Shown in pieces: positions 3,457 through 40,827 of a DNA stretch of 58,071 bases. The notes beneath the pieces were generated by a model. It ran no database searches and was not told the origin of the DNA. It saw nothing but the letters and a program-made list of their open reading frames with translations. Each line of letters begins with the position of its first letter. Position 1 is the first letter of the stretch. The stretch spans positions 1-58,071 of the forward strand of contig JAEOSX010000016.1 of NCBI GenBank assembly GCA_016840135.1, read 5' to 3'. This stretch comes from Candidatus Hermodarchaeota archaeon. GTDB taxonomy: Archaea; Asgardarchaeota; Hermodarchaeia; Hermodarchaeales; Hermodarchaeaceae. A program made the translations under genes and the position numbers.

Positions 3457-4443
3457 CTACTTGATATGAGATGTATAATCCCTGTATGGATCGTGACCCA
3501 TTGACAAGGGAGCGGTTTCGCCCCCACGATTGAGAAGGAGTTGCTGGTTGGAGGTAAACCCGCCGATAATCGCTGCGGGGCGATTCTGACGCTTTAACTC
3601 GTATAGGATATCAGAAGCCCTATCTTCGGCTGTAGCTATTAGGAAGCTGCCAAAGGAGGAACAATGAAGAGGATTCCATCCCAAATTGGTGCAAAGCCGT
3701 AGGATGACGCTATCCCAAGGTATCGAATCAAATTGGATAGTTAAACCAAAACCTGTAGCCCTACATAATTCGGTTAAAGAGGTAGCTAGCCCACCTTCTG
3801 CCAAATCATGCATCAAGAGTATTTTCTTTTGGGAGAGAGAACACGCAACTGATGCCACGTTAAACGGATTCAAATCCCTAGCTACTTGTTTGCGCTTCTT
3901 TGATCTTAATACCTCATCGACCTTTTCAGGTTCAACGTTTGCTAGAAACCAGGTGGTTTCCCTCCCTACGGGACCAGCTGCAATAAGGATATCCTTGGGC
4001 TTCACAGAACGAGGTGAAAATGGTTTTTCTGGAAGAAACCCCAAACAGGTCGAGGAGATTATTGGGAGAGTGAGTCCGTCGTAGCCTCCTGTGTGGCCGC
4101 CAAGAATGTTAATGTCAAGATCCCGAGCTGCATCCCCAAGTTGACGCATATTGCTCTCCAACCATTTCTCAGAGGTACCCGGTGGATAATAAACACCCAA
4201 TGTAAGGTACTGCGGAATTGCAAAGGACATTGAGATATCTGCGGCTGAGTAGTGGACTGCAAAGAACCCGTAATATTCGAGGGGGACTCCGATTACTGGA
4301 TCAGAGGCTGCAACGATATTGCCAGAGGTCTGAGCGGTAATGAAATCAAGTGGCACCTCCCGTGAATCATCAACACGTGGAAGATGCCGAAACACCAGCC
4401 GCTCTAAATCCGCGAATCCTAGCTTACCTTTGGGAAGACTCAA
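3457..4443 (-). CDS. AIR synthase-related (PurM/HypE/SelD-like) protein
   Basis: ILGGHTGGYDGLTLPIISSTCLGF, ILIAAGPVGRE, MHDLAEGGLATSLTELC motifs. Confidence 0.82.
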   Translation of the reverse strand: MSLPKGKLGFADLERLVFRHLPRVDDSREVPLDFITAQTSGNIVAASDPVIGVPLEYYGFFAVHYSAADISMSFAIPQYLTLGVYYPPGTSEKWLESNMRQLGDAARDLDINILGGHTGGYDGLTLPIISSTCLGFLPEKPFSPRSVKPKDILIAAGPVGRETTWFLANVEPEKVDEVLRSKKRKQVARDLNPFNVASVACSLSQKKILLMHDLAEGGLATSLTELCRATGFGLTIQFDSIPWDSVILRLCTNLGWNPLHCSSFGSFLIATAEDRASDILYELKRQNRPAAIIGGFTSNQQLLLNRGGETAPLSMGHDPYRDYTSHIK

Positions 4444-4514
4444 TAATTACCACTCTTTTTTGTAGAGAACTGCAGCTTTCAATGTTTTAACCGATGTGGT
4501 AATGTTTAGTTGAT

Positions 4515-7500
4515 TCACAAATCGTGTAATATTTGTTGGATTTCTTCGAGTTCTTCTCCGCTCGATGGGTCTATGACAAGGCAACATCGCTGGACCCGTT
4601 CTTCTCCTGGTTGTAACCAGAAGTTTGCATCTAAGTTACCAAACCATGCAGCCATTCCAATGTGGAGAGCGAGCAAGGTCTTTCTTCTACCAGCTGTGAG
4701 AAGTGCTAGTCCTTCTGGAGGTTCAGATTCTGAGGGTACTCGTCTAAGCCAAGCAGCCCCGGTGTCAGGTGTGAAAGCTGCAGGAGTAGGACTGGGCCTA
4801 ATCTCTGCAAAGCTATCGCCCCAACGTGCTTGCATAACGGAGTCTGTCACAGTCCCGTTAAATCCAAGATCTATCAACAGCGCTGTGAATAGCCGAAGAG
4901 GAGCGGATGTGGTATTGTTGAAATGCCAGTCTATCAGAATCAGTGGACTTCCTGGGGCTGTGAGGTACTTCAATTTGAAATCGACACCTCGACAGACTGG
5001 TTGAATTTCACTTCGCCAAGATACTTCGACGCCTTTCCAGATTTTACCTAGAGTGCAGGGGCTAGCATCCATTTTCTCTAAATTCGTCTTTGCGGCGAAT
5101 GTATCCTCGTCCACGCCTGAGATGACTGGTTGCACTCCACCATGGTAATTTTGGATGAATATCTTTGGCTGGGGTTTCGGGAATGCTGAGCAGAGCAGTT
5201 CTGTACTCTGTTCGTTCTTTAATGAGTAGAGGCAGCCTCCAAAGTCGGGGGACACAGCAAATTCCAGTAGACCATTTCTTACTCGAAATACTTTGAGGTC
5301 CTCTTCACGCTCTTCTGAGATGTCAACTTTGCTTCCTGTTGTACCTAGCTGAAGGATAGAGAAGGATTGGCGTGTTTGAACGGGAGTCTGCCAAGTCATA
5401 TTTGTTTTGAAAAGGGCGAATTTATCGGGTATAGATTTAGTTGGAGAAAGCGTCAAGCGAAGGGCAGGTGGATTATCGCTGGTTATCTCGGAAAGCATAA
5501 TAGGAGAAGTACTACTCTCGGCGTCTAGAAGGTTTAGTTTGGTGGACCATCCTTTCAGAGGGTCAATGGACAAGGGACCTGACAGGGGTGAACTCGCTAA
5601 ATAGCGTATAGAGAACTCGCAGCTAACTTTTTTCCGGTGAGGAAGCACGATAGTTGGGGGAGTAATCCGCAAAACTGCGGTGGTCTCGGGGGGTGTTCGC
5701 AAATCGCCTAATTGAGGAATATGGTGTTTGATTTTTTCCTGCCAAACTCTTTGGATTGCAGTCCAGTCTGGTGCCTGCATGATATGCCATACTCTTGAGA
5801 GACACTTCTGTTCGCCTGGTCCTACGGTAACTTGGCGATACTGAAGTTGACTAATGCGCCCTGTATTTACTTGTATTTCTTCTAGATTCTCAGGATCCCA
5901 GATTTGGCCAATTGTTAGTGATTCTGTCTTGATGGCAATCCATTCTTCGCCAAAGATTTCTGGATTAGTTTGAATGGATGGATAACTCATCAAGTTACTG
6001 GAAGTTGATCCTTCGATTGTACCAGAGGTTAGCGGGATTACTGCTGTTCCAGTGCTTAGAGATATTCCTCCCCCAGGACCTATGAGTCTGAGCTGGAAAC
6101 TATGTTCTTCTTTCCCAGTGTTAATCGCTAAGGTTTCCTGAGAAATCACAGAGGAGTTATGGGGGAATGTGAGTCTGGTTACTACTTTGAGTGGTCGCTC
6201 TGGGTGAACTGCTGTTAGTGAAACAATCGTTGTTGAGGCGGATTGGTTTACATCTATTTCTTGTTCAGCGAACCGGAAGGGACTGAGACCAAAGGGAGGT
6301 CCTACTTCGTTTCTTAGACGGAGCGCAGGGACTTGTTCTATTTGACTGAGTATTTGTATTTGTCCTCCTTCCCGAGCTATACGAGCAGAGTAATCGGCGC
6401 TCACAACATGGAGTTCGCGCCTACGGTCATCTTCGCCAACAGTGACACCTCCTTCTGGGATACAATAGACGGGGAGGCGATATTTCCGTGTGGTAACCTT
6501 CAAACCCTTGTCAGTGTTTTCTTGAAGATGGAGTGAAGCCCACAGGTCGTATGTCCCAAGAGGAGAATCCTCCTTTGCCGAAATCTCAATTACGGCACCA
6601 GCTAAACCCTCAGGTGTAACCTCTACACTGCATTCCATCGGTGAGAGGGAAAGAGAAGTGTGGGGAGGGTCGAATCGGAGTTTTCCTCGAAGAGGAGTGG
6701 AAGTGTTGCTAGTTATTGTGAGTGGGAGAGGGGTTGTGCCCCCTGGTGTTATTCGCGTTTCACCGAAGTGTGTGATTATTTCTGCTGCTGGTTTTATCTT
6801 CAATCCCGTGTACAGTGTTACTTCAGTATCAGCTAGTTTCAACTTTGCCTTAATTAATGGGGACTTTTGGTCCTTACGAAAGATTGGGGCTGAGGAATCA
6901 AGATGAAAGGGCACTGACCAAACTGAGAAATTCCCAGCTGGAACCTTTAGGACATTTTCGTGTTTTTCTTCAAAATGAAGTGCATCGAAACCCTCTAGCA
7001 CGATAGAGAGTTCAATATCTTCCTTGGTCTCGTTGGTAATCTCAAGCAAGTAGGAAGAGGGGATTCCGCAAAGAGTTAGCTGGTCAGGTACACGAGCTTG
7101 GATTTTTAGGCACTCGCCGTCGATGACCCTCTCTACCCCTGTTATGGCCCTAGCGTAACGGTCAACAACTACTCTGAGAGAATCATTCTCTGATTTGAAC
7201 TCGTAGATGAACACGTTCATTTTCCCTTCTTGCATAACATCAGGGGCCTGCGTGAGTTCTCGCTGCTGCAATGTATACCAGGCTAGGGGATCCGAATGTT
7301 TCTGGAAAAATGGAGCACACAGAGGATGTTGAAGGATTCCGGAAATCCAGCCCTGGAGATAGACACCATCTGTTTCAGGATTCCACATAAGCCCAATTTT
7401 CTTATAGAGAGGAACTGCCCGAAGATTTCCTGCCCACGTATTCAGGTCTACACGGAGATACCCTTTTTCTGTGGCGATAGCAATACTTCTTAGGAGGAGC

Positions 7501-7808
7501 CGTTTGCCAACTTTCTTCTTCAGAACTTCTGGAGAAACTCCGAGTAGTCCTATGTAGGCTGCTTCTGGGTCCCGCCAGTGCTGTAGGAGGGAGAGGAAAC
7601 CAACAGGTTTGTCCTTGTCCATTGCTATCAGAATGGAGATTGCCCGCATTTTAGAATAGATTTTGTGAACGCGTTCTGCTGTATAGGGTACGCCTCCTGT
7701 GAAGCCTCCAGGCCACAGGTCGTCCCAGCCGTTGAACATCTCAGCTATACGTGGAGCAAGGTCTTCACGATAACCTTCTATGATTTCGATGTCTTGTTCT
7801 TCTGTCAT
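4515..7808 (-). CDS. Giant GNAT - beta-sandwich - mutarotase-like multidomain protein (paralog 1)
   Basis: N-term GNAT (YIGLLGVSPEVLKKKVGKRLLLRSIAIATEKGYLRVDLNTWAGNLRAVPLYKKIGL), then ~900 aa beta-rich region ending in NGLLEFAVSPDFGGCLYSLKNEQSTELL; start set at MTEEQD (7808). Confidence 0.85.
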   Translation of the reverse strand: MTEEQDIEIIEGYREDLAPRIAEMFNGWDDLWPGGFTGGVPYTAERVHKIYSKMRAISILIAMDKDKPVGFLSLLQHWRDPEAAYIGLLGVSPEVLKKKVGKRLLLRSIAIATEKGYLRVDLNTWAGNLRAVPLYKKIGLMWNPETDGVYLQGWISGILQHPLCAPFFQKHSDPLAWYTLQQRELTQAPDVMQEGKMNVFIYEFKSENDSLRVVVDRYARAITGVERVIDGECLKIQARVPDQLTLCGIPSSYLLEITNETKEDIELSIVLEGFDALHFEEKHENVLKVPAGNFSVWSVPFHLDSSAPIFRKDQKSPLIKAKLKLADTEVTLYTGLKIKPAAEIITHFGETRITPGGTTPLPLTITSNTSTPLRGKLRFDPPHTSLSLSPMECSVEVTPEGLAGAVIEISAKEDSPLGTYDLWASLHLQENTDKGLKVTTRKYRLPVYCIPEGGVTVGEDDRRRELHVVSADYSARIAREGGQIQILSQIEQVPALRLRNEVGPPFGLSPFRFAEQEIDVNQSASTTIVSLTAVHPERPLKVVTRLTFPHNSSVISQETLAINTGKEEHSFQLRLIGPGGGISLSTGTAVIPLTSGTIEGSTSSNLMSYPSIQTNPEIFGEEWIAIKTESLTIGQIWDPENLEEIQVNTGRISQLQYRQVTVGPGEQKCLSRVWHIMQAPDWTAIQRVWQEKIKHHIPQLGDLRTPPETTAVLRITPPTIVLPHRKKVSCEFSIRYLASSPLSGPLSIDPLKGWSTKLNLLDAESSTSPIMLSEITSDNPPALRLTLSPTKSIPDKFALFKTNMTWQTPVQTRQSFSILQLGTTGSKVDISEEREEDLKVFRVRNGLLEFAVSPDFGGCLYSLKNEQSTELLCSAFPKPQPKIFIQNYHGGVQPVISGVDEDTFAAKTNLEKMDASPCTLGKIWKGVEVSWRSEIQPVCRGVDFKLKYLTAPGSPLILIDWHFNNTTSAPLRLFTALLIDLGFNGTVTDSVMQARWGDSFAEIRPSPTPAAFTPDTGAAWLRRVPSESEPPEGLALLTAGRRKTLLALHIGMAAWFGNLDANFWLQPGEERVQRCCLVIDPSSGEELEEIQQILHDL

Positions 7809-7926
7809 TGGTTCTCGCCTACGTTGCTGCTTATTGGGTTTGGTAATAAGATTTGTGGAAAACAAGGTTTTGGGATACATCGTTTACCGCTATACCTTGT
7901 CACACGAGATATATCGTGAGGTAAGG

Positions 7927-8865
7927 TTATTTAAGGTTTTTGGAACGGGTTAAGAGTTTCATTTCAACTGCGATAAGAACACTAGCGAGGAGAATGAGAA
8001 CAGCCCCTATTAGCTGCCAGAAGGCGATGACTTGGTGCATGAATAAATAGCCCATGATGACAGCGCTGATTGGGTCGAGTAATAGAATGATTGCTGCAGC
8101 GGAGGCGTCAATATCCTTCAAACCAACATTTACCAATGTATAGGGAATAGTTGTGCTCACAAGCGCAAAGCCCAAGATTAAGAGCCATGCAAGTGGTGGC
8201 AGAAAAAGCTGGAATCCCACGATACGTGGATCTGTCACAACAAGATTTGTAGTAAAGGTTAGTGGGCACATCCAGATGAGGGCGAATGTATAACCCCAGT
8301 AAGTTGTCGTTGTGGATTTGTAACCCTCGCGGACGCTCCATTTACCAAATAAAACATAGAATGCAGCAAATACTCCATTGGCGATAGACAAAATTACTCC
8401 TAGTAGAGGTATAGAACCTAACTCCAGGTTAATTGGTAATGAAACTATAACCGCCCCTAAGACGGAAAGGGGTACAGCTGCTATGCGAACAGGGTTTAGG
8501 GATTCTTTCAATAGCAGGCGGGCAAGGACTAGCGTTATTGCAGGATACAAATAGGTCAGGGAGACTGCGATTACAACAGGAGTGCCGATTGCTATTGCTG
8601 TAATGTATGCCATGATTGAGCTAGCTATCGCAAAAAGTCCGTAGAGAATAAAGAGAAGTCTGTGTTCGCGGCGAATCTTCAACCCCCGAAAATGGAAAGC
8701 CACACCGATGCCGATGAAGAGAAAGACCACTGTGAAGAGTATGCGGAAGAGTGCTTGCTGGAGAGAGGGCACTCCAAAGGCACTCAAGTAGTAAGAGAAA
8801 ACCGGGATACTACCAAAGCAAACGGCGGCGACAATGAGGCTCAAGTAGTTCATAATTCGTGGCAT
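7927..8865 (-). CDS. EamA/DMT-superfamily transporter
   Basis: Ten-TM-like hydrophobic pattern with two EamA-like halves (PVVIAVSLTYLYPAITLVLARLLLKESL; AAAIILLLDPISAVIMGYLFMHQ). Confidence 0.9.
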   Translation of the reverse strand: MPRIMNYLSLIVAAVCFGSIPVFSYYLSAFGVPSLQQALFRILFTVVFLFIGIGVAFHFRGLKIRREHRLLFILYGLFAIASSIMAYITAIAIGTPVVIAVSLTYLYPAITLVLARLLLKESLNPVRIAAVPLSVLGAVIVSLPINLELGSIPLLGVILSIANGVFAAFYVLFGKWSVREGYKSTTTTYWGYTFALIWMCPLTFTTNLVVTDPRIVGFQLFLPPLAWLLILGFALVSTTIPYTLVNVGLKDIDASAAAIILLLDPISAVIMGYLFMHQVIAFWQLIGAVLILLASVLIAVEMKLLTRSKNLK

Positions 8866-8907
8866 TACAAACCGCCTTCCTTTGACGGTCCATATCTAAA
8901 TAACCTC

Positions 8908-9477
8908 TTAATAGGGAGTGACAAGCTCAGCGCCGCGATGAAGGGCTCGTAAATTTTCCTTGGCGAACTGCCCTAGTTTTACATCGTTTTGAATCGTTTC
9001 CTCTAGAAATCGAATTTCGATTCTATCATCAACCTTTGTAATAGCTCCGAGCGAAGCAACTCCTAGGTACCTTACGTGCTCCAGCTCTTCTGCAACCTGA
9101 CTCAAATCTGATTTAAAAATCTGGGTTACGCCCTCCTGCTTGATATCTGCAAGCGTCGATTGAATAGATGGATTACTTAACAAATCGGATTCGATAATGA
9201 GAATGTTGCTGCTCAAATCGGGACTGATTGAACAACATTTCAAAAATGCAGAAGCTGTAAGCGCGGCGAGTATATCAGGTCGATCGAAGCCAAGTTCAAA
9301 GATTGGATTGGAAGAAGCGGTGAGATCTGCGGTACAAGAGCCACCTCGGGCGGCTGCACCGTGGGACTCAGTTTGTAGTGTATGGTAACCTTGTTGAGTA
9401 AAAGCAAGCCCAAGAATTCGGCTAGCTGTTACTACGCCATATCCACCATACCCAGCTAGTCTTATTGTTATGTGCAA
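8908..9477 (-). CDS. korC: 2-oxoacid:ferredoxin oxidoreductase gamma subunit (KorC-like)
   Basis: IRLAGYGGYGVVTASRILGLAFTQQGYHTLQTESHGAAARGGSCTADL; last of a four-subunit cluster. Confidence 0.9.
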   Translation of the reverse strand: MHITIRLAGYGGYGVVTASRILGLAFTQQGYHTLQTESHGAAARGGSCTADLTASSNPIFELGFDRPDILAALTASAFLKCCSISPDLSSNILIIESDLLSNPSIQSTLADIKQEGVTQIFKSDLSQVAEELEHVRYLGVASLGAITKVDDRIEIRFLEETIQNDVKLGQFAKENLRALHRGAELVTPY

Positions 9478-9492
9478 TGATTATTCACCTTG

Positions 9493-10380
9493 TTATTTCC
9501 AGAGGGATTGAAGTGTCTCCGTTAGTGTGGAACGCTCTTCTCTGATGAACACGCCAAGTTCGATGGTTTGGTCCTTCAGAGTAAGTTCATAGCGGGGGTG
9601 ACCAAGATTTTTGCCTGTTCTCTTACCCTTGAGGGCCTTTAGCATCCACGCGCCGGGATTTCGATGAAACTGCTTGCGCTCTTTAGGAGATAGTGAGTCT
9701 CTGTACTCGTTAAAGAATCGTGCCGCGTAGGTTGGGCATTGCGATATGATTTCGATGAACACAAATCCCGGGTGGAGAAGTGCTTCTTGCATTGAAGTAA
9801 TAATATCGTCTATGTGATATGTGGTCCATCTTGCCACATAGCTGGCTCCTGCACCAAGAGCCAGGCGGCTGAGATCGAATGGAGGCTCGGGGTTACTCTG
9901 ATAAGTAGAGGAGTGAACCCCAAACGGGGTTGTAGGAGCGGATTGTCCTCCCGTCATTCCATAAACTTGGTTGTTTACTAGTATCACCTTCAAGGGTATG
10001 TTGCGGCGAGCGGCGTGAATGAGGTGATTGCCTCCGATAGCTGCCCCATCACCGTCACCCGTGAAGACAACAACTTCGAGTTTTGGGTTCATGATTTTTG
10101 CGCCAGTCGCAAAGGCGATAGCCCTACCGTGGGTTGTGTGCAGTGTGTCTCCTTTGAAGTAAGGGCTTGGAATCCAAGCTGAGCAACCTATTCCTGAGAC
10201 GCAGAGGAGATCTCGTTGTTGCAGCTGCTTTCCAACAACCAGCGCATCGACTGCACGGACGAAGCAGCCTAGAATCGAACCGTTACCGCAGCCCGTGCAG
10301 AAAGCTGTCGGAAGATTACGCAAGTATTTTTTACGGTAGTATTGTTGCTGCTTCCCGAGGGGAGTTGTTTGTTGGCTCAA
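9493..10380 (-). CDS. korB: 2-oxoacid:ferredoxin oxidoreductase beta subunit (KorB-like)
   Basis: FCTGCGNGSILGCFVRAVD; TPP-binding GDGDGAAIGGNHLIHAARRN. Confidence 0.93.
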   Translation of the reverse strand: MSQQTTPLGKQQQYYRKKYLRNLPTAFCTGCGNGSILGCFVRAVDALVVGKQLQQRDLLCVSGIGCSAWIPSPYFKGDTLHTTHGRAIAFATGAKIMNPKLEVVVFTGDGDGAAIGGNHLIHAARRNIPLKVILVNNQVYGMTGGQSAPTTPFGVHSSTYQSNPEPPFDLSRLALGAGASYVARWTTYHIDDIITSMQEALLHPGFVFIEIISQCPTYAARFFNEYRDSLSPKERKQFHRNPGAWMLKALKGKRTGKNLGHPRYELTLKDQTIELGVFIREERSTLTETLQSLWK

Positions 10381-10386
10381 TTGATA

Positions 10387-11511
10387 TCATCCTCTAATTT
10401 TTTGGAGTATTTCGTTGGAGTGATGGATTTCACCGCCAACTTTGGGTATCCCTGTCACCTGAGCTTGGCACCCTACTCGTTCGATTTCCCGTATCATCAT
10501 TCCCATGTTCATCTCAACTACGAAGATGCGCTTCATGTCTTTGACAAGCTTGGTCAGTTGGTTTTCTGGGAAGGGCCAAAGTGTCTTGAGGCGGATGAAC
10601 CCAATGGATTCACCTTCTTTCTGGGCTGCGAGTACCGCTTTGTAAGCGGGTCGCGCTGCTGCACCGAAGCTGATTATCACTGTATCAGCGTTGTCAAGAT
10701 TATGTACCTCAAGGTCTAGTCCTTCTTGTTGGAGTGCTTTGCCAGCCTCCTTCTGTTTCTCGAAGAGCCAGTGAATAGTGGCTCGGTGGTATCTGGGAGA
10801 GTAATCTCGCACCCCTGTAGGACGGTGAGCGGACCCGGTGACCAGAAGATCGTGACCGTCGCCGAATTTGGGCATTTCATAGCGTAAGAATATTTCATCT
10901 GGATTGGGGTCATCCTTTGAAAGGCTGCGTCGATTTACTATGGGTAATTCGCCTTTTTTGGGGATGTTCAGCGGTTCACGCATATAGCTAATTGCACCAT
11001 CCGCCATGAGGAGTACAGGAGTGCGGAACCTTTCAGAATAGTTGAAGGCATAGACTGTGAAGTCAAACATCTCTTGGACTGACCAAGGCGCAAAGGCGAT
11101 TGGAGCAATATCTCCATGCGTTCCGTACCGTGCTTGCATAACATCTTGTTGAGCTGGCATTGTGGCTTGACCAGTGCTAGGTCCTGAGCGTTGAGTGTCA
11201 ACGACAACCAGTGGTGTCTCTGTAAGATACGCGTAGCCCAGGTTTTCTTGCATTAAGCTGAAACCAGGACCGGATGTCGCGGTCATCGCCTTTCCACCAG
11301 CCCAAGAGGCACCAATTATCGCCGCCATAGAGGCGATTTCGTCTTCCATTTGAACGTAGTAGCCACGTAATTGAGGTAGACGTTCAGCCATACGTTTAAC
11401 AATACTGGTCGCTGGTGTTATTGGGTATCCAGCGAAGAATCGACAGCCAGCGTAGAGGGCGCCTTCAGCGCACGCTATACCGCCATCGACGAAGTATAAT
11501 CCTTGCTTCAT
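10387..11511 (-). CDS. korA: 2-oxoacid:ferredoxin oxidoreductase alpha subunit (KorA-like)
   Basis: GGIACAEGALYAGCRFFAGYPITPATSIVKRMAERLP; TSGPGFSLMQENLGYA. Confidence 0.93.
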   Translation of the reverse strand: MKQGLYFVDGGIACAEGALYAGCRFFAGYPITPATSIVKRMAERLPQLRGYYVQMEDEIASMAAIIGASWAGGKAMTATSGPGFSLMQENLGYAYLTETPLVVVDTQRSGPSTGQATMPAQQDVMQARYGTHGDIAPIAFAPWSVQEMFDFTVYAFNYSERFRTPVLLMADGAISYMREPLNIPKKGELPIVNRRSLSKDDPNPDEIFLRYEMPKFGDGHDLLVTGSAHRPTGVRDYSPRYHRATIHWLFEKQKEAGKALQQEGLDLEVHNLDNADTVIISFGAAARPAYKAVLAAQKEGESIGFIRLKTLWPFPENQLTKLVKDMKRIFVVEMNMGMMIREIERVGCQAQVTGIPKVGGEIHHSNEILQKIRG

Positions 11512-11753
11512 TCTTCTACCACCTCAACATTGATCGCAGCATCTGGGCATCGTTTTTCACAACGGCGGCAAGCCACACCCTTCTCCCCTCGAACTAGCAT
11601 GCATTTAGTTTCTCCCCCTTCACAAAGGCGTGGTCTATGACCTCCATGAACGGTTGACTCGCCTGCTTCGAGAATTTTAGCAGGACAAAAGAGAATACAG
11701 ATTCCACAGCCTTTGCACAAGGATTTGTCAGCGATGATTTTGACGTGCCGCAT
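11508..11753 (-). CDS. korD: 2-oxoacid:ferredoxin oxidoreductase delta subunit, 4Fe-4S ferredoxin (KorD-like)
   Basis: CKGCGICILFCPAKIL and CRRCEKRCPDAAI; 4-bp overlap with korA. Confidence 0.9.
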   Translation of the reverse strand: MRHVKIIADKSLCKGCGICILFCPAKILEAGESTVHGGHRPRLCEGGETKCMLVRGEKGVACRRCEKRCPDAAINVEVVEE

Positions 11754-18216: not shown

Positions 18217-18822
18217 ATGACTGAATTCACGAAATATCATGTCGCCAAGGGTCAAATCGTAAAAGTGCCAGAAGAGCACATGGGCGATTTTGCCGAAGGC
18301 GATGTCTATCTAGTAGATGCTGGTTCAATCATATATCTCTGGTGCGGCAAGACTTCATCACCAGATGAAAGATTTGTAGGTGCCATAACTTCGGTGATGG
18401 GTGACCGTACACGCAGGGGTCACACACGTCTTATAACAGTGGACCAAGGAGAAGAGCCGAAAGAATTTCTCAGCCTTTTCGGTGGCAGCATCACAGTCAC
18501 CGCACAAGACACTGAAGGTATTTTGCGGCGTGTAGCCTTGAAGAAACGGGAATACAAGCTCTTCCGAGTTCACATCGAAGGTGATATCAGCCTTTTCTAC
18601 GAAGTGAAACGCATACGTTCTTCGCTCACTTCAGATGACGTTTATCTTCTGGACACTTTCAACAAGATATTCATTTGGCAAGGAAAGGGCTCGACTAGTG
18701 AGGAAAAGGAGACTGGCTTCATCATCGCACAAAAATACGATTCTGAACGAGCTGGACCCCAAGAAATCATACCTCTACGTGAAGGAGAAGAGACTAAGGA
18801 ATTCTTTAAGGCACTGAAGTGA
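18217..18822 (+). CDS. Gelsolin/villin-like protein with two gelsolin repeats
   Basis: GDVYLVDAGSIIYLWCGKTSSPDERFVGAI and DDVYLLDTFNKIFIWQGKGSTSEEKETGFIIAQKY are two gelsolin-type repeats. Confidence 0.9.
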   Translation: MTEFTKYHVAKGQIVKVPEEHMGDFAEGDVYLVDAGSIIYLWCGKTSSPDERFVGAITSVMGDRTRRGHTRLITVDQGEEPKEFLSLFGGSITVTAQDTEGILRRVALKKREYKLFRVHIEGDISLFYEVKRIRSSLTSDDVYLLDTFNKIFIWQGKGSTSEEKETGFIIAQKYDSERAGPQEIIPLREGEETKEFFKALK

Positions 18823-38109: not shown

Positions 38110-38262
38110 TACAGAATTGGACAACCTTTTTTTAGAGTGAACAAGCCCCGAGGTCGTACTTTGATAACCCTTAATAGTCCTTAAACATGTTAAACGTGTA
38201 TATCATCTCAAAGAAGAATGTAAAAGAAATCAAACTGGTGTTTCGCCTTGCAGAAGCGTACT

Positions 38263-39954
38263 ATGATTATTCGGAACGGATTTGTCGTGGATCCGAAGAA
38301 CAAAGTCCACGAGGTCAGGGACATCGAGATAAAAGACGGAAAGGTTGTTGAATCCGTCGATTCAGATGGAGCAGAAATCATTGACGCGAAGGGGCTCCTA
38401 GTCGTACCCGGTGGAATCGAAATCCATGCCCATCTCGCTACACCTAAAGTGGACTCTGGACGCGTTCTTCGCTGCGACCAGTCAAGAATGGATCCATACA
38501 CTTACTCGGATATCTGCCGCGCCGGAGTGTGGGCTAGCGTCCCCCCGACCCACATCACTGGTTACAAGTACTCTGAACTTGGCTACACTTTTGTAACGGA
38601 AGCAGCCACAGCCGGATTAGTAGCCCGACACACCCATGAAGAACTCAGCGAAATCAATCCTCTTGACAAAATCATGTTTCCCCTCTTTGGGAACCATCAA
38701 CTTTTCATGGAATATGCACGGGAGAAGGATTATGACAAACTTGCTGCTTTTGCGGCGTGGATGTTACGTGCCACAAAGGGGTTTGCACTAAAGGCTGTGA
38801 ATCCAACAGGAGTAGCCGATTGGTCATGGGGCGGAAACGTCGAATCGCTTGACCAGAAAATCCGTGCCTTCGATGTTACCTCACGCGAGGTAATCGTCGG
38901 TCTTATCGAAGCCTCTGAACGGTTGCGAACACCACATCCAGTACATCTTCACGCGAACATGCTTGGTCGACCAGGCAATACTGCAATCACAATAGAAACT
39001 ATGGAAATTGCTAACAACTTACCCACAAACCGCGAATCGGACATCAATTTGCACATGACTCATATCCAGTTCCATGCTTATGGTGGCGAGGATTTTGCTG
39101 GTTTCCGCTCAGGTGCAGAGCCTGTCGCTGATTTTCTCAAGAAACACAAGAACATCAGTACGGATCTAGGACAAATCGTCTTCTCTGACACGACTACAAT
39201 GACTGCAGATGGTCCTTGGGAATGGATTCTCCGAGGCATTTCAGGAAGCCGCTGGGTTAATGATGACATAGAAGTTGAATGTGGCGGTGGTGTTGTACCT
39301 TACGAGTTCAAGCGGAGTTCCCGGGTTAATGCAATCCAGTGGGCTATCGGTCTTGAAATTGCTTTGATGGTTAATGATCCTTGGCGCGTCTTCCCCACTA
39401 CGGACCATCCGAACGCTGGAACCTTCATTAATTATCCACATATTGCTGCGTGGCTTATGAGTCGGAAAGCCCGTGAAGACGTGCTTGATGAGATGAAGAG
39501 GAGCGCCAAGGCACGTATGGTCCTGCCTTCTCTTGAAACAGAATTCTCGCTAAAGGACTTCATCATCGCTACTCGCCCTGGACCAGCACGTTCCCTAGGA
39601 TTGTTCCATAAAGGTCATCTGGGAGCTGGAGCTGATGCTGACATTGCAATCTACAAATTAGATGCTCAGAAGGACTATTCATCCAGCCCTGCCAAATTGG
39701 TTCGAGCCCTCACTCAAGCTGAATATACTATAAAGGACGGGCGTATCGTTCAGAAGAAGGGGAAGATGGTGGCTTTGCCCAAAGGGCGCACATACTGGGT
39801 TGACGCCCGAGTAGAGCCTGATCTAGAAGCAGCTGTAGAGCGTGACATTCGAGAGAAATTCCAGAAACACTACTCAATCCAGTTTGAGAATTACCCTGTT
39901 TCCAAACGATACCTAGACTGGTCCGCTCCAATTCGTCCTCACCTTACTTCCTAG
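38263..39954 (+). CDS. fwdA: Formylmethanofuran dehydrogenase subunit A
   Basis: GGIEIHAHLATPKVDSGRVLRCDQSRMDP amidohydrolase-type protein with LKAVNPTGVADWSWGGNV and FPTTDHPNAGTFINYP; ATG at 38263 preferred over TTG 38248. Confidence 0.95.
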   Translation: MIIRNGFVVDPKNKVHEVRDIEIKDGKVVESVDSDGAEIIDAKGLLVVPGGIEIHAHLATPKVDSGRVLRCDQSRMDPYTYSDICRAGVWASVPPTHITGYKYSELGYTFVTEAATAGLVARHTHEELSEINPLDKIMFPLFGNHQLFMEYAREKDYDKLAAFAAWMLRATKGFALKAVNPTGVADWSWGGNVESLDQKIRAFDVTSREVIVGLIEASERLRTPHPVHLHANMLGRPGNTAITIETMEIANNLPTNRESDINLHMTHIQFHAYGGEDFAGFRSGAEPVADFLKKHKNISTDLGQIVFSDTTTMTADGPWEWILRGISGSRWVNDDIEVECGGGVVPYEFKRSSRVNAIQWAIGLEIALMVNDPWRVFPTTDHPNAGTFINYPHIAAWLMSRKAREDVLDEMKRSAKARMVLPSLETEFSLKDFIIATRPGPARSLGLFHKGHLGAGADADIAIYKLDAQKDYSSSPAKLVRALTQAEYTIKDGRIVQKKGKMVALPKGRTYWVDARVEPDLEAAVERDIREKFQKHYSIQFENYPVSKRYLDWSAPIRPHLTS

Positions 39955-39966
39955 GAGAGAGATTCA

Positions 39967-40827
39967 ATGTCGGTAGGCCCGACTCCTTCGGAGCTACGTA
40001 TCAAACTAATGCTGCCTGAGCATCTAGAATCCGTTGTATTGATGATGCGAGAGGAGGGCTGGACACCCACCCGTGGCGATCTAGAGAACGTGTTAAGCTA
40101 CGAGCCGGAGGGCTGTTATGTCGCTGAAGTCAATGGAGATATTGTGGGGTCAGTTACCACCACGTTATACACCCATTTCGGCTGGATTGGGATGATGATG
40201 GTGAGAAAAGACCTGAGACGCCGCCATATCGGATCGACCTTACTTGAAGCTGCCCTAAAGTTCTTCAAGGAGAAAGGTGTCCCTACTGCCCGGTTGGAGG
40301 CGGACCCACCGGGTGTCCCACTCTATGAGAGCTTTGGCTTCGTGAAAGAGTGTGACTCACAGCGGTGGTTTGGGAAACCCTTCAAAATACGGAATGTTCC
40401 TGGAACAGGGCGTGCAACGAAGGTCGACCTTGATGCCGTGCTAGCCTTAGATAAACAAGCCTTTGGTGATGACCGCAGTCGCGTCCTCAGGCGCTTATTT
40501 GATTATTCAGATTTTGCCTTCAAAGTTCGCAGAGAACCCAGTTTAGGGATTATAATGGGTCGAAAGACTGCTGCTGGGACAATGTTAGGACCCTTTATTG
40601 CAGCTAATGCAGATGTTGCAAAACGACTACTGCGCTGGGCTGTAGGGTTCATAGAAGAGGGGGAAGCCTACGTAGGTATCCCTGAAACAAGTGGGAATGC
40701 ACGACTGTTATTAAGTACGCAACGGTTCCGAATGCGTACAGTACTCACACGAATGTATCTGGGTGACCCGCCTCGAAGCGGCAATCCACAGTTCGAATAT
40801 GGTATTGCGGCTTCGGCTACAGGCTAG
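39967..40827 (+). CDS. GNAT acetyltransferase with C-terminal Acetyltransf_18-like domain
   Basis: MMMVRKDLRRRHIGSTLLEAALKFFKEKG and VLALDKQAFGDDRSRVLRRLF. Confidence 0.88.
   Translation: MSVGPTPSELRIKLMLPEHLESVVLMMREEGWTPTRGDLENVLSYEPEGCYVAEVNGDIVGSVTTTLYTHFGWIGMMMVRKDLRRRHIGSTLLEAALKFFKEKGVPTARLEADPPGVPLYESFGFVKECDSQRWFGKPFKIRNVPGTGRATKVDLDAVLALDKQAFGDDRSRVLRRLFDYSDFAFKVRREPSLGIIMGRKTAAGTMLGPFIAANADVAKRLLRWAVGFIEEGEAYVGIPETSGNARLLLSTQRFRMRTVLTRMYLGDPPRSGNPQFEYGIAASATG

Follow-up and report, generated by a model that had tools for sequence, protein, structure and literature searches.

A predicted GNAT, Ig-like and supersandwich domain architecture in a Hermodarchaeota genome is shared by archaea and bacteria

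The window analysed here, a 58,071-nucleotide stretch of a Hermodarchaeota contig, carries two genes encoding large proteins, P0001 and P0002 (Table 1), which are the only copies of their family in the 81%-complete source genome. The single continuous reading frame that the initial annotation had recognised for P0001 is real, and its strand is minus, running from the ATG at 7808 through the stop codon; coding on the plus strand was rejected, as the interval is full of stops in that direction. An in-frame ATG further upstream, at 7880, would yield a protein of 1121 aa; the orthologs begin at the 7808 ATG. P0001 lies within a same-strand run of genes (3457-11753, minus strand) that includes 2-oxoacid:ferredoxin oxidoreductase genes (ferredoxin, alpha, beta and gamma), an EamA transporter and an AIR-synthase-like gene. 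P0002 is preceded (38248-40824, plus strand) by fwdA (formylmethanofuran dehydrogenase subunit A, TIGR03121) and a gene for a 286-aa protein whose two GNAT domains are Acetyltransf_1 and Acetyltransf_18. The adjacency of fwdA and P0002 is kept in Hermodarchaeota and was seen only there, and the window has fwd genes at several dispersed sites, so the adjacency is not taken as evidence of a functional link between the two. Other genes that by eye resemble C1 genes (fwdB, ftr, fwdC and mch) or a cofactor gene (cofE) are dispersed without clustering between 24348 and 58071, and a 201-aa reading frame at 18217-18822 (plus strand) resembles gelsolin on visual inspection, which would be expected in an Asgard archaeon.

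Table 1. Coordinates of the two family members in the window and of the predicted domains of P0001.
Feature	Position	Strand	Basis
P0001, GNAT-Ig-Ig-supersandwich-Ig-supersandwich, 1097 aa	4515..7808	-	ORF, ortholog starts, model
GNAT domain, residues ~1-195	7224..7808	-	Pfam, conservation, model
Ig-like domain 1 (Ig1), residues ~196-340	6789..7223	-	model; weak FixG_C Ig matches; hhalign to Ig2 95%
Ig-like domain 2 (Ig2), residues ~341-445	6474..6788	-	model; hhalign to Ig3 96%
Supersandwich (mutarotase-fold) domain 1 (SS1), residues ~446-700	5709..6473	-	hhalign to SS2 97%, 222 columns; conservation
Ig-like domain 3 (Ig3), residues ~711-825	5334..5678	-	model; hhalign
Supersandwich (mutarotase-fold) domain 2 (SS2), residues 822-1097	4518..5345	-	separate AlphaFold model; Foldseek to galactose mutarotases
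P0002, second family member, same architecture, 1076 aa	40945..44175	+	sequence comparison; tree

Pfam recognises just a GNAT domain and a weak Ig-like match in P0001. The former, to Acetyltransf_1 (PF00583; residues 54-139, E 9e-13, 48.9 bits against a cut-off of 20.7), together with intact core positions, bears out the N-terminal GNAT core that had been proposed previously. In a full-chain AlphaFold model for which 66 full-length relatives were aligned (pLDDT 88.3, pTM 0.81), the chain is mixed alpha/beta up to approximately residue 195 and all beta thereafter. When profiles were compared within the chain using hhalign, two domains of ~260 residues (450-705 and 832-1097) proved related to each other (97% over 222 columns) and three Ig-like domains of ~120 residues proved mutually related (78-96%), while the GNAT domain scored at most 1% against any tail domain. 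Because this comparison pairs the SS domains and the Ig domains, the order of P0001 is read from profiles and model as GNAT, Ig1, Ig2, SS1, Ig3, SS2. What had been described as a mutarotase-like region of ~900 aa therefore retains its fold but not its unity, as it resolves into three Ig-like and two related supersandwich domains. Likewise, the "Ig/NEW3-like" segments survive only in their Ig part: weak FixG_C Ig-like matches were obtained in 8 of 16 family members, whereas NEW3 (PF10633) has no Pfam match in P0001 or 15 relatives.

When SS2 was folded alone, a highly confident model resulted (pLDDT 94.2, pTM 0.92), for which Foldseek returned 127 PDB matches at E <= 0.001, including GalM of B. 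subtilis (4bze; TMq 0.68, E 4e-9), hexose-6-phosphate mutarotases and the supersandwich domains of GH36, GH38 and GH94; the mutarotase and GH supersandwich matches span TMq 0.50-0.68. The periplasmic domain of YidC is also among the top matches. Thus, the mutarotase/CAZyme-like fold anticipated in the initial annotation was recovered by structure prediction, and the model confirms SS2 as a galactose-mutarotase-type supersandwich, the fold of galactose mutarotase/aldose 1-epimerase, whereas SS1 is assigned to the supersandwich fold through its profile match to SS2. A sequence-only search of the PDB with SS2 gave no match, and a search with the tail gave nothing beyond the GNAT part save weak CD109 matches to the Ig region. 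Full-chain Foldseek matches to multi-Ig proteins (ciliary apparatus, complement and macroglobulins) were discarded at TM 0.07-0.16, and the single match in a viral structure library at E <= 0.001 was uninformative.

Despite the shared fold, the tail differs from mutarotases and glycoside hydrolases in several respects. It lacks sequence matches to solved mutarotases, no column of SS1 or SS2 holds a histidine in at least 40% of the 66 sequences, so that the catalytic His pair of mutarotases is not conserved, and the model beyond residue 195 is all beta save for short helices, leaving no catalytic (beta/alpha)8 or (alpha/alpha)6 domain of the kind found in glycosidases. Because both the conserved His pair and the glycosidase barrel are absent, the tail is unlikely to be a mutarotase or glycosidase, and the unconserved histidines make any carbohydrate enzyme activity unlikely; for the same reasons, it looks like a receptor or scaffold. 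Across the 66 sequences, E621 and W623 of SS1 are invariant, E911 and W924 of SS2 are nearly so, and residues 851-950 form the most conserved stretch outside of the GNAT domain. The tail may consequently contain candidate binding sites.

The GNAT domain shares with its superfamily (PF00583) the core fold, the motif A region, and the invariant Asn and general-acid Tyr positions. In all 66 aligned sequences, which come from a wide range of archaeal and bacterial phyla, W32, Y85, T124, W125, G127, N128, Y135, G139, W142 and D190 are invariant; Y135 and N128, each found in 66 of 66, occupy what we take to be the usual GNAT general-acid and CoA-contact positions, respectively. CoA-binding motif A (Q/R-x-x-G-x-G/A) is canonical in most members, such as P0002 (RKQGFGK), and altered in the P0001 clade, where LKKKVGK replaces QGKGFGK; only the last glycine is kept, with the remainder of the GNAT domain conserved. 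Given the intact GNAT positions, the domain very probably uses CoA as the donor of an acyl group and an amine as its acceptor. The nearest named GNAT models (WecD, RimI, PaiA and MshD) all match far below cut-off, and the family is set apart from named GNATs by its W-P-G-G and TWxGN signatures and its 900-aa all-beta tail. WecD, a dTDP-amino-sugar acyltransferase, is the best match in 16 of 16 members, although P0001 scores 31.2 bits against an NCBIfam equivalog cut-off of 219. Weak similarity to streptothricin, arsinothricin and polyamine acetyltransferases was also detected, and PADLOC anti-phage defence models gave no match.

One could envision from these features a protein or peptide N-acyltransferase, in which the Ig and supersandwich tail would serve as a scaffold recruiting a protein substrate, while the GNAT domain acetylates a lysine or N-terminus in the manner of RimI. 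Weak matches to RimI models, on a par with those to other GNAT models, occur in 9 of 16 members, Ig-like arrays often act as protein-interaction modules, and we know of no sugar role for the YidC supersandwich. On the other hand, none of the conserved neighbours is an obvious gene for a protein substrate, and the family-specific aromatics of the GNAT domain (W32, W125, W142 and W177-Y178), as well as the sulfatase and amidohydrolase neighbours described below, better fit a small-molecule or glycan acceptor. We consider a protein substrate improbable.

Several observations indicate that the entire chain is a maintained unit. Firstly, P0001 is under strong purifying selection: compared with a congener, dN/dS is 0.107 overall and 0.031 for the GNAT part, the strongest constraint of the protein, and both the enzyme part and the tail are therefore maintained by selection. 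Secondly, the protein occurs in 84 of 228 Asgard genomes, usually as one reading frame of 1,040-1,150 codons. A scan of GTDB species genomes yielded 253 candidate stretches encoding relatives, and the 80 of 253 that were kept include archaea (Hermod-, Thor-, Loki- and Heimdallarchaeota, Bathyarchaeota, Thermoplasmata and Thermoprotei) as well as bacteria (Armatimonadota, Chloroflexota, Latescibacterota, Zixibacteria and Bacillota). Whole-genome searches detected it in 85/201 genomes of Paenibacillaceae, the family of Paenibacillus, in 10/201 of Chloroflexota, in 18/151 of Armatimonadota and in 14/16 of the phylum of the Latescibacterota genome; phages yielded no relatives. An artefactual or chance fusion, through read-through or misassembly, would have only the oddity of the architecture in its favour. 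It carries almost no probability and is already refuted by the recurrence of the same order as one reading frame in well over a hundred genomes from many phyla, by a dN/dS of ~0.1 and by the confident full-length model. Two types of variants were also encountered: shorter GNAT-first relatives of ~815-900 aa in other Asgard families (L047 7595-10036, L048 7533-10217, L049 6999-9641 and L050 3243-5867), two of which stand beside genes resembling hydantoinase/oxoprolinase pairs, and a copy (L040 7296-10622) split by a TAA into a GNAT part (256 aa) and a tail (852 aa), either through sequencing error or as a real split gene.

The paralog already suspected from the first reading is P0002, which is 28% identical to P0001 over 1003 columns (E 1e-81). 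In the tree, P0001 falls within a Thor/Loki/Hermod clade near Bathyarchaeota and Thermoplasmata, while P0002 belongs to a separate Hermodarchaeota clade; because of these separate clades, the two are paralogs of long standing and did not arise by recent tandem duplication. The GNAT-Ig-Ig-SS-Ig-SS architecture itself is that of an old, widespread family of archaea and bacteria, instead of being restricted to archaea. The initial annotation knew of no named family with this order, and this stands: the NCBI name of one member, WP_233811912.1 of Cytobacillus spongiae (~1,026 aa), is just 'GNAT family N-acetyltransferase', with no function assigned, and a literature search found no paper describing the architecture. 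The novelty is accordingly an unnamed, widespread architecture and not an archaeal oddity.

The clearest partner gene is found among the Paenibacillaceae, where the GNAT protein and an Amidohydro_2 gene are present in the same 85 of 201 genomes, both are missing from the other 116, and none has one alone, a count inflated by shared ancestry. In all 40 loci inspected, the Amidohydro_2 gene lies directly downstream on the same strand, separated by gaps of about -14 to +32 nt; a gap of -858 in one pair is a stop-finding artefact. Even allowing for the inflated count, such patchy co-occurrence constitutes a strong functional link. An amidohydrolase-GNAT fusion suspected at one locus (L163) was rejected, since the translation has a stop between both genes, and the Cytobacillus plasmid copy, also from Bacillota, has no amidohydrolase partner. 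No ortholog of the Bacilli amidohydrolase was found in Asgard genomes, which encode just generic amidohydrolases of 25-34% identity, none of them adjacent, and it was rejected as an Asgard partner on this basis. The strict two-gene module could point to a small-metabolite acyltransferase of salvage or detoxification: the GNAT domain would acylate a free amine (an amino acid, amino sugar or antibiotic-like compound), the Bacilli amidohydrolase would open or hydrolyse the product, and the tail would provide oligomerisation and active-site closure as opposed to glycan binding. The weak similarity to antibiotic and polyamine acetyltransferases is in keeping with such a role, and the substrates of Amidohydro_2 (PF04909) enzymes include small lactones, amides and carboxylates. 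Nevertheless, a conserved 900-aa tail with its invariant E621 and W623 and its 851-950 block would be costly for a plain small-molecule enzyme, and the partner genes differ between phyla, which leaves this scenario rather unlikely, though less so than a protein substrate.

Elsewhere, the neighbourhoods are more varied. In five Latescibacterota loci, the gene directly upstream encodes a sulfatase, and one Anaerolineae locus has a sulfatase fragment on the downstream side. The closest solved relatives of these sulfatases are a mixture of glycosaminoglycan, aryl- and choline sulfatases, and a specific identity as N-sulfoglucosamine sulfohydrolase was rejected for that reason. Some Armatimonadota have heparinase-II/III-like or amylase genes nearby. 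Among the Thorarchaeota, third-clade copies are preceded by two membrane-protein genes, an ArsR-type regulator (HTH_5) and a LiaF/toastrack-like gene (LiaF-like_C), an upstream operon conserved in 14-17 Thorarchaeota-type loci (for example, L092 2558-5841). This operon would fit an envelope-stress device whose tail detects a precursor of the envelope or an intermediate of a cell-surface glycan, upon which the GNAT domain either modifies that compound or signals. However, it is limited to one of three Asgard clades and is absent from the P0001 and P0002 loci, and we regard a general role of this type as quite improbable, more so than either of the previous alternatives. In several Thorarchaeota, P0001-type copies have co-oriented upstream genes for ~181-aa proteins without a Pfam match (L058 5278-5820 and L080 5279-5821), beyond which a molybdopterin oxidoreductase is divergently encoded.

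Where the protein acts can be addressed from its hydropathy. Since the peak 19-residue value is 1.19, at residue 575, and residues 1-40 contain no hydrophobic stretch, no signal peptide is visible in P0001, in agreement with the cytosolic location suggested at the outset. Our preferred reading, which we put slightly short of even, is that the P0001/P0002 family comprises cytosolic CoA-dependent N-acyltransferases with a non-catalytic tail. CoA would donate an acyl group, probably acetyl, which the GNAT domain passes to a primary amine, while the tail would hold this acceptor, for which the simplest candidate is an amine that bears a sugar, for example an amino sugar within an oligosaccharide or a nucleotide sugar; in Bacilli, the co-inherited amidohydrolase-superfamily enzyme would share this metabolite, acting either ahead of the acylation or following it. 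That the tail holds the acceptor rather than catalysing is the reading we favour as probable. That the acceptor carries a sugar or glycan is a tentative proposal, suggested by the fold, the sulfatase and glycan-degradation neighbours, the weak WecD similarity and a precedent from fungi. RmNag is a GH3 beta-N-acetylglucosaminidase that ends in a GNAT glucosamine N-acetyltransferase, whose pocket reportedly contains an aromatic sugar platform, and hence unites GNAT and carbohydrate-enzyme parts in a single chain (PMC4680927). Its architecture is not homologous to that of P0001, as it has the opposite order, tandem GNAT domains and an active GH3 catalytic part, whereas P0001 has a single GNAT domain. 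Against a sugar acceptor, supersandwich folds occur in proteins without a sugar role, such as the YidC periplasmic domain. Against the model as a whole, the sugar-related neighbours turn up sporadically in different phyla and do not flank the Asgard copies, the Bacilli partner has no Asgard ortholog, and P0001's own gene run (oxidoreductase, EamA and AIR-synthase-like genes) is conserved in the genus and close relatives only.

These results describe an architecture of about 1,100 residues that is present in approximately a third of the sampled Asgard genomes and common in Paenibacillaceae, yet hidden under a generic 'GNAT family N-acetyltransferase' label, and which combines two well-known folds in a way absent from the papers searched. 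It suggests that mutarotase-type domains are reusable as non-catalytic acceptor holders. Because the perfectly co-inherited partner enzyme occurs in culturable bacteria, function should be directly testable through Paenibacillus genetics instead of in uncultured archaea. A bolder and somewhat unlikely extension would view these proteins as ancient, cross-domain, cytosolic "receptor-acyltransferases": the two disarmed mutarotase-fold domains would bind a conjugate of a glycan or amino sugar so that its free amine is offered to the GNAT domain, and the partner enzyme would be a hydrolase in Bacilli and a sulfatase in Latescibacterota. If true, receptor-acyltransferases would be a prokaryotic, soluble counterpart of glycan-amine N-acetylation.
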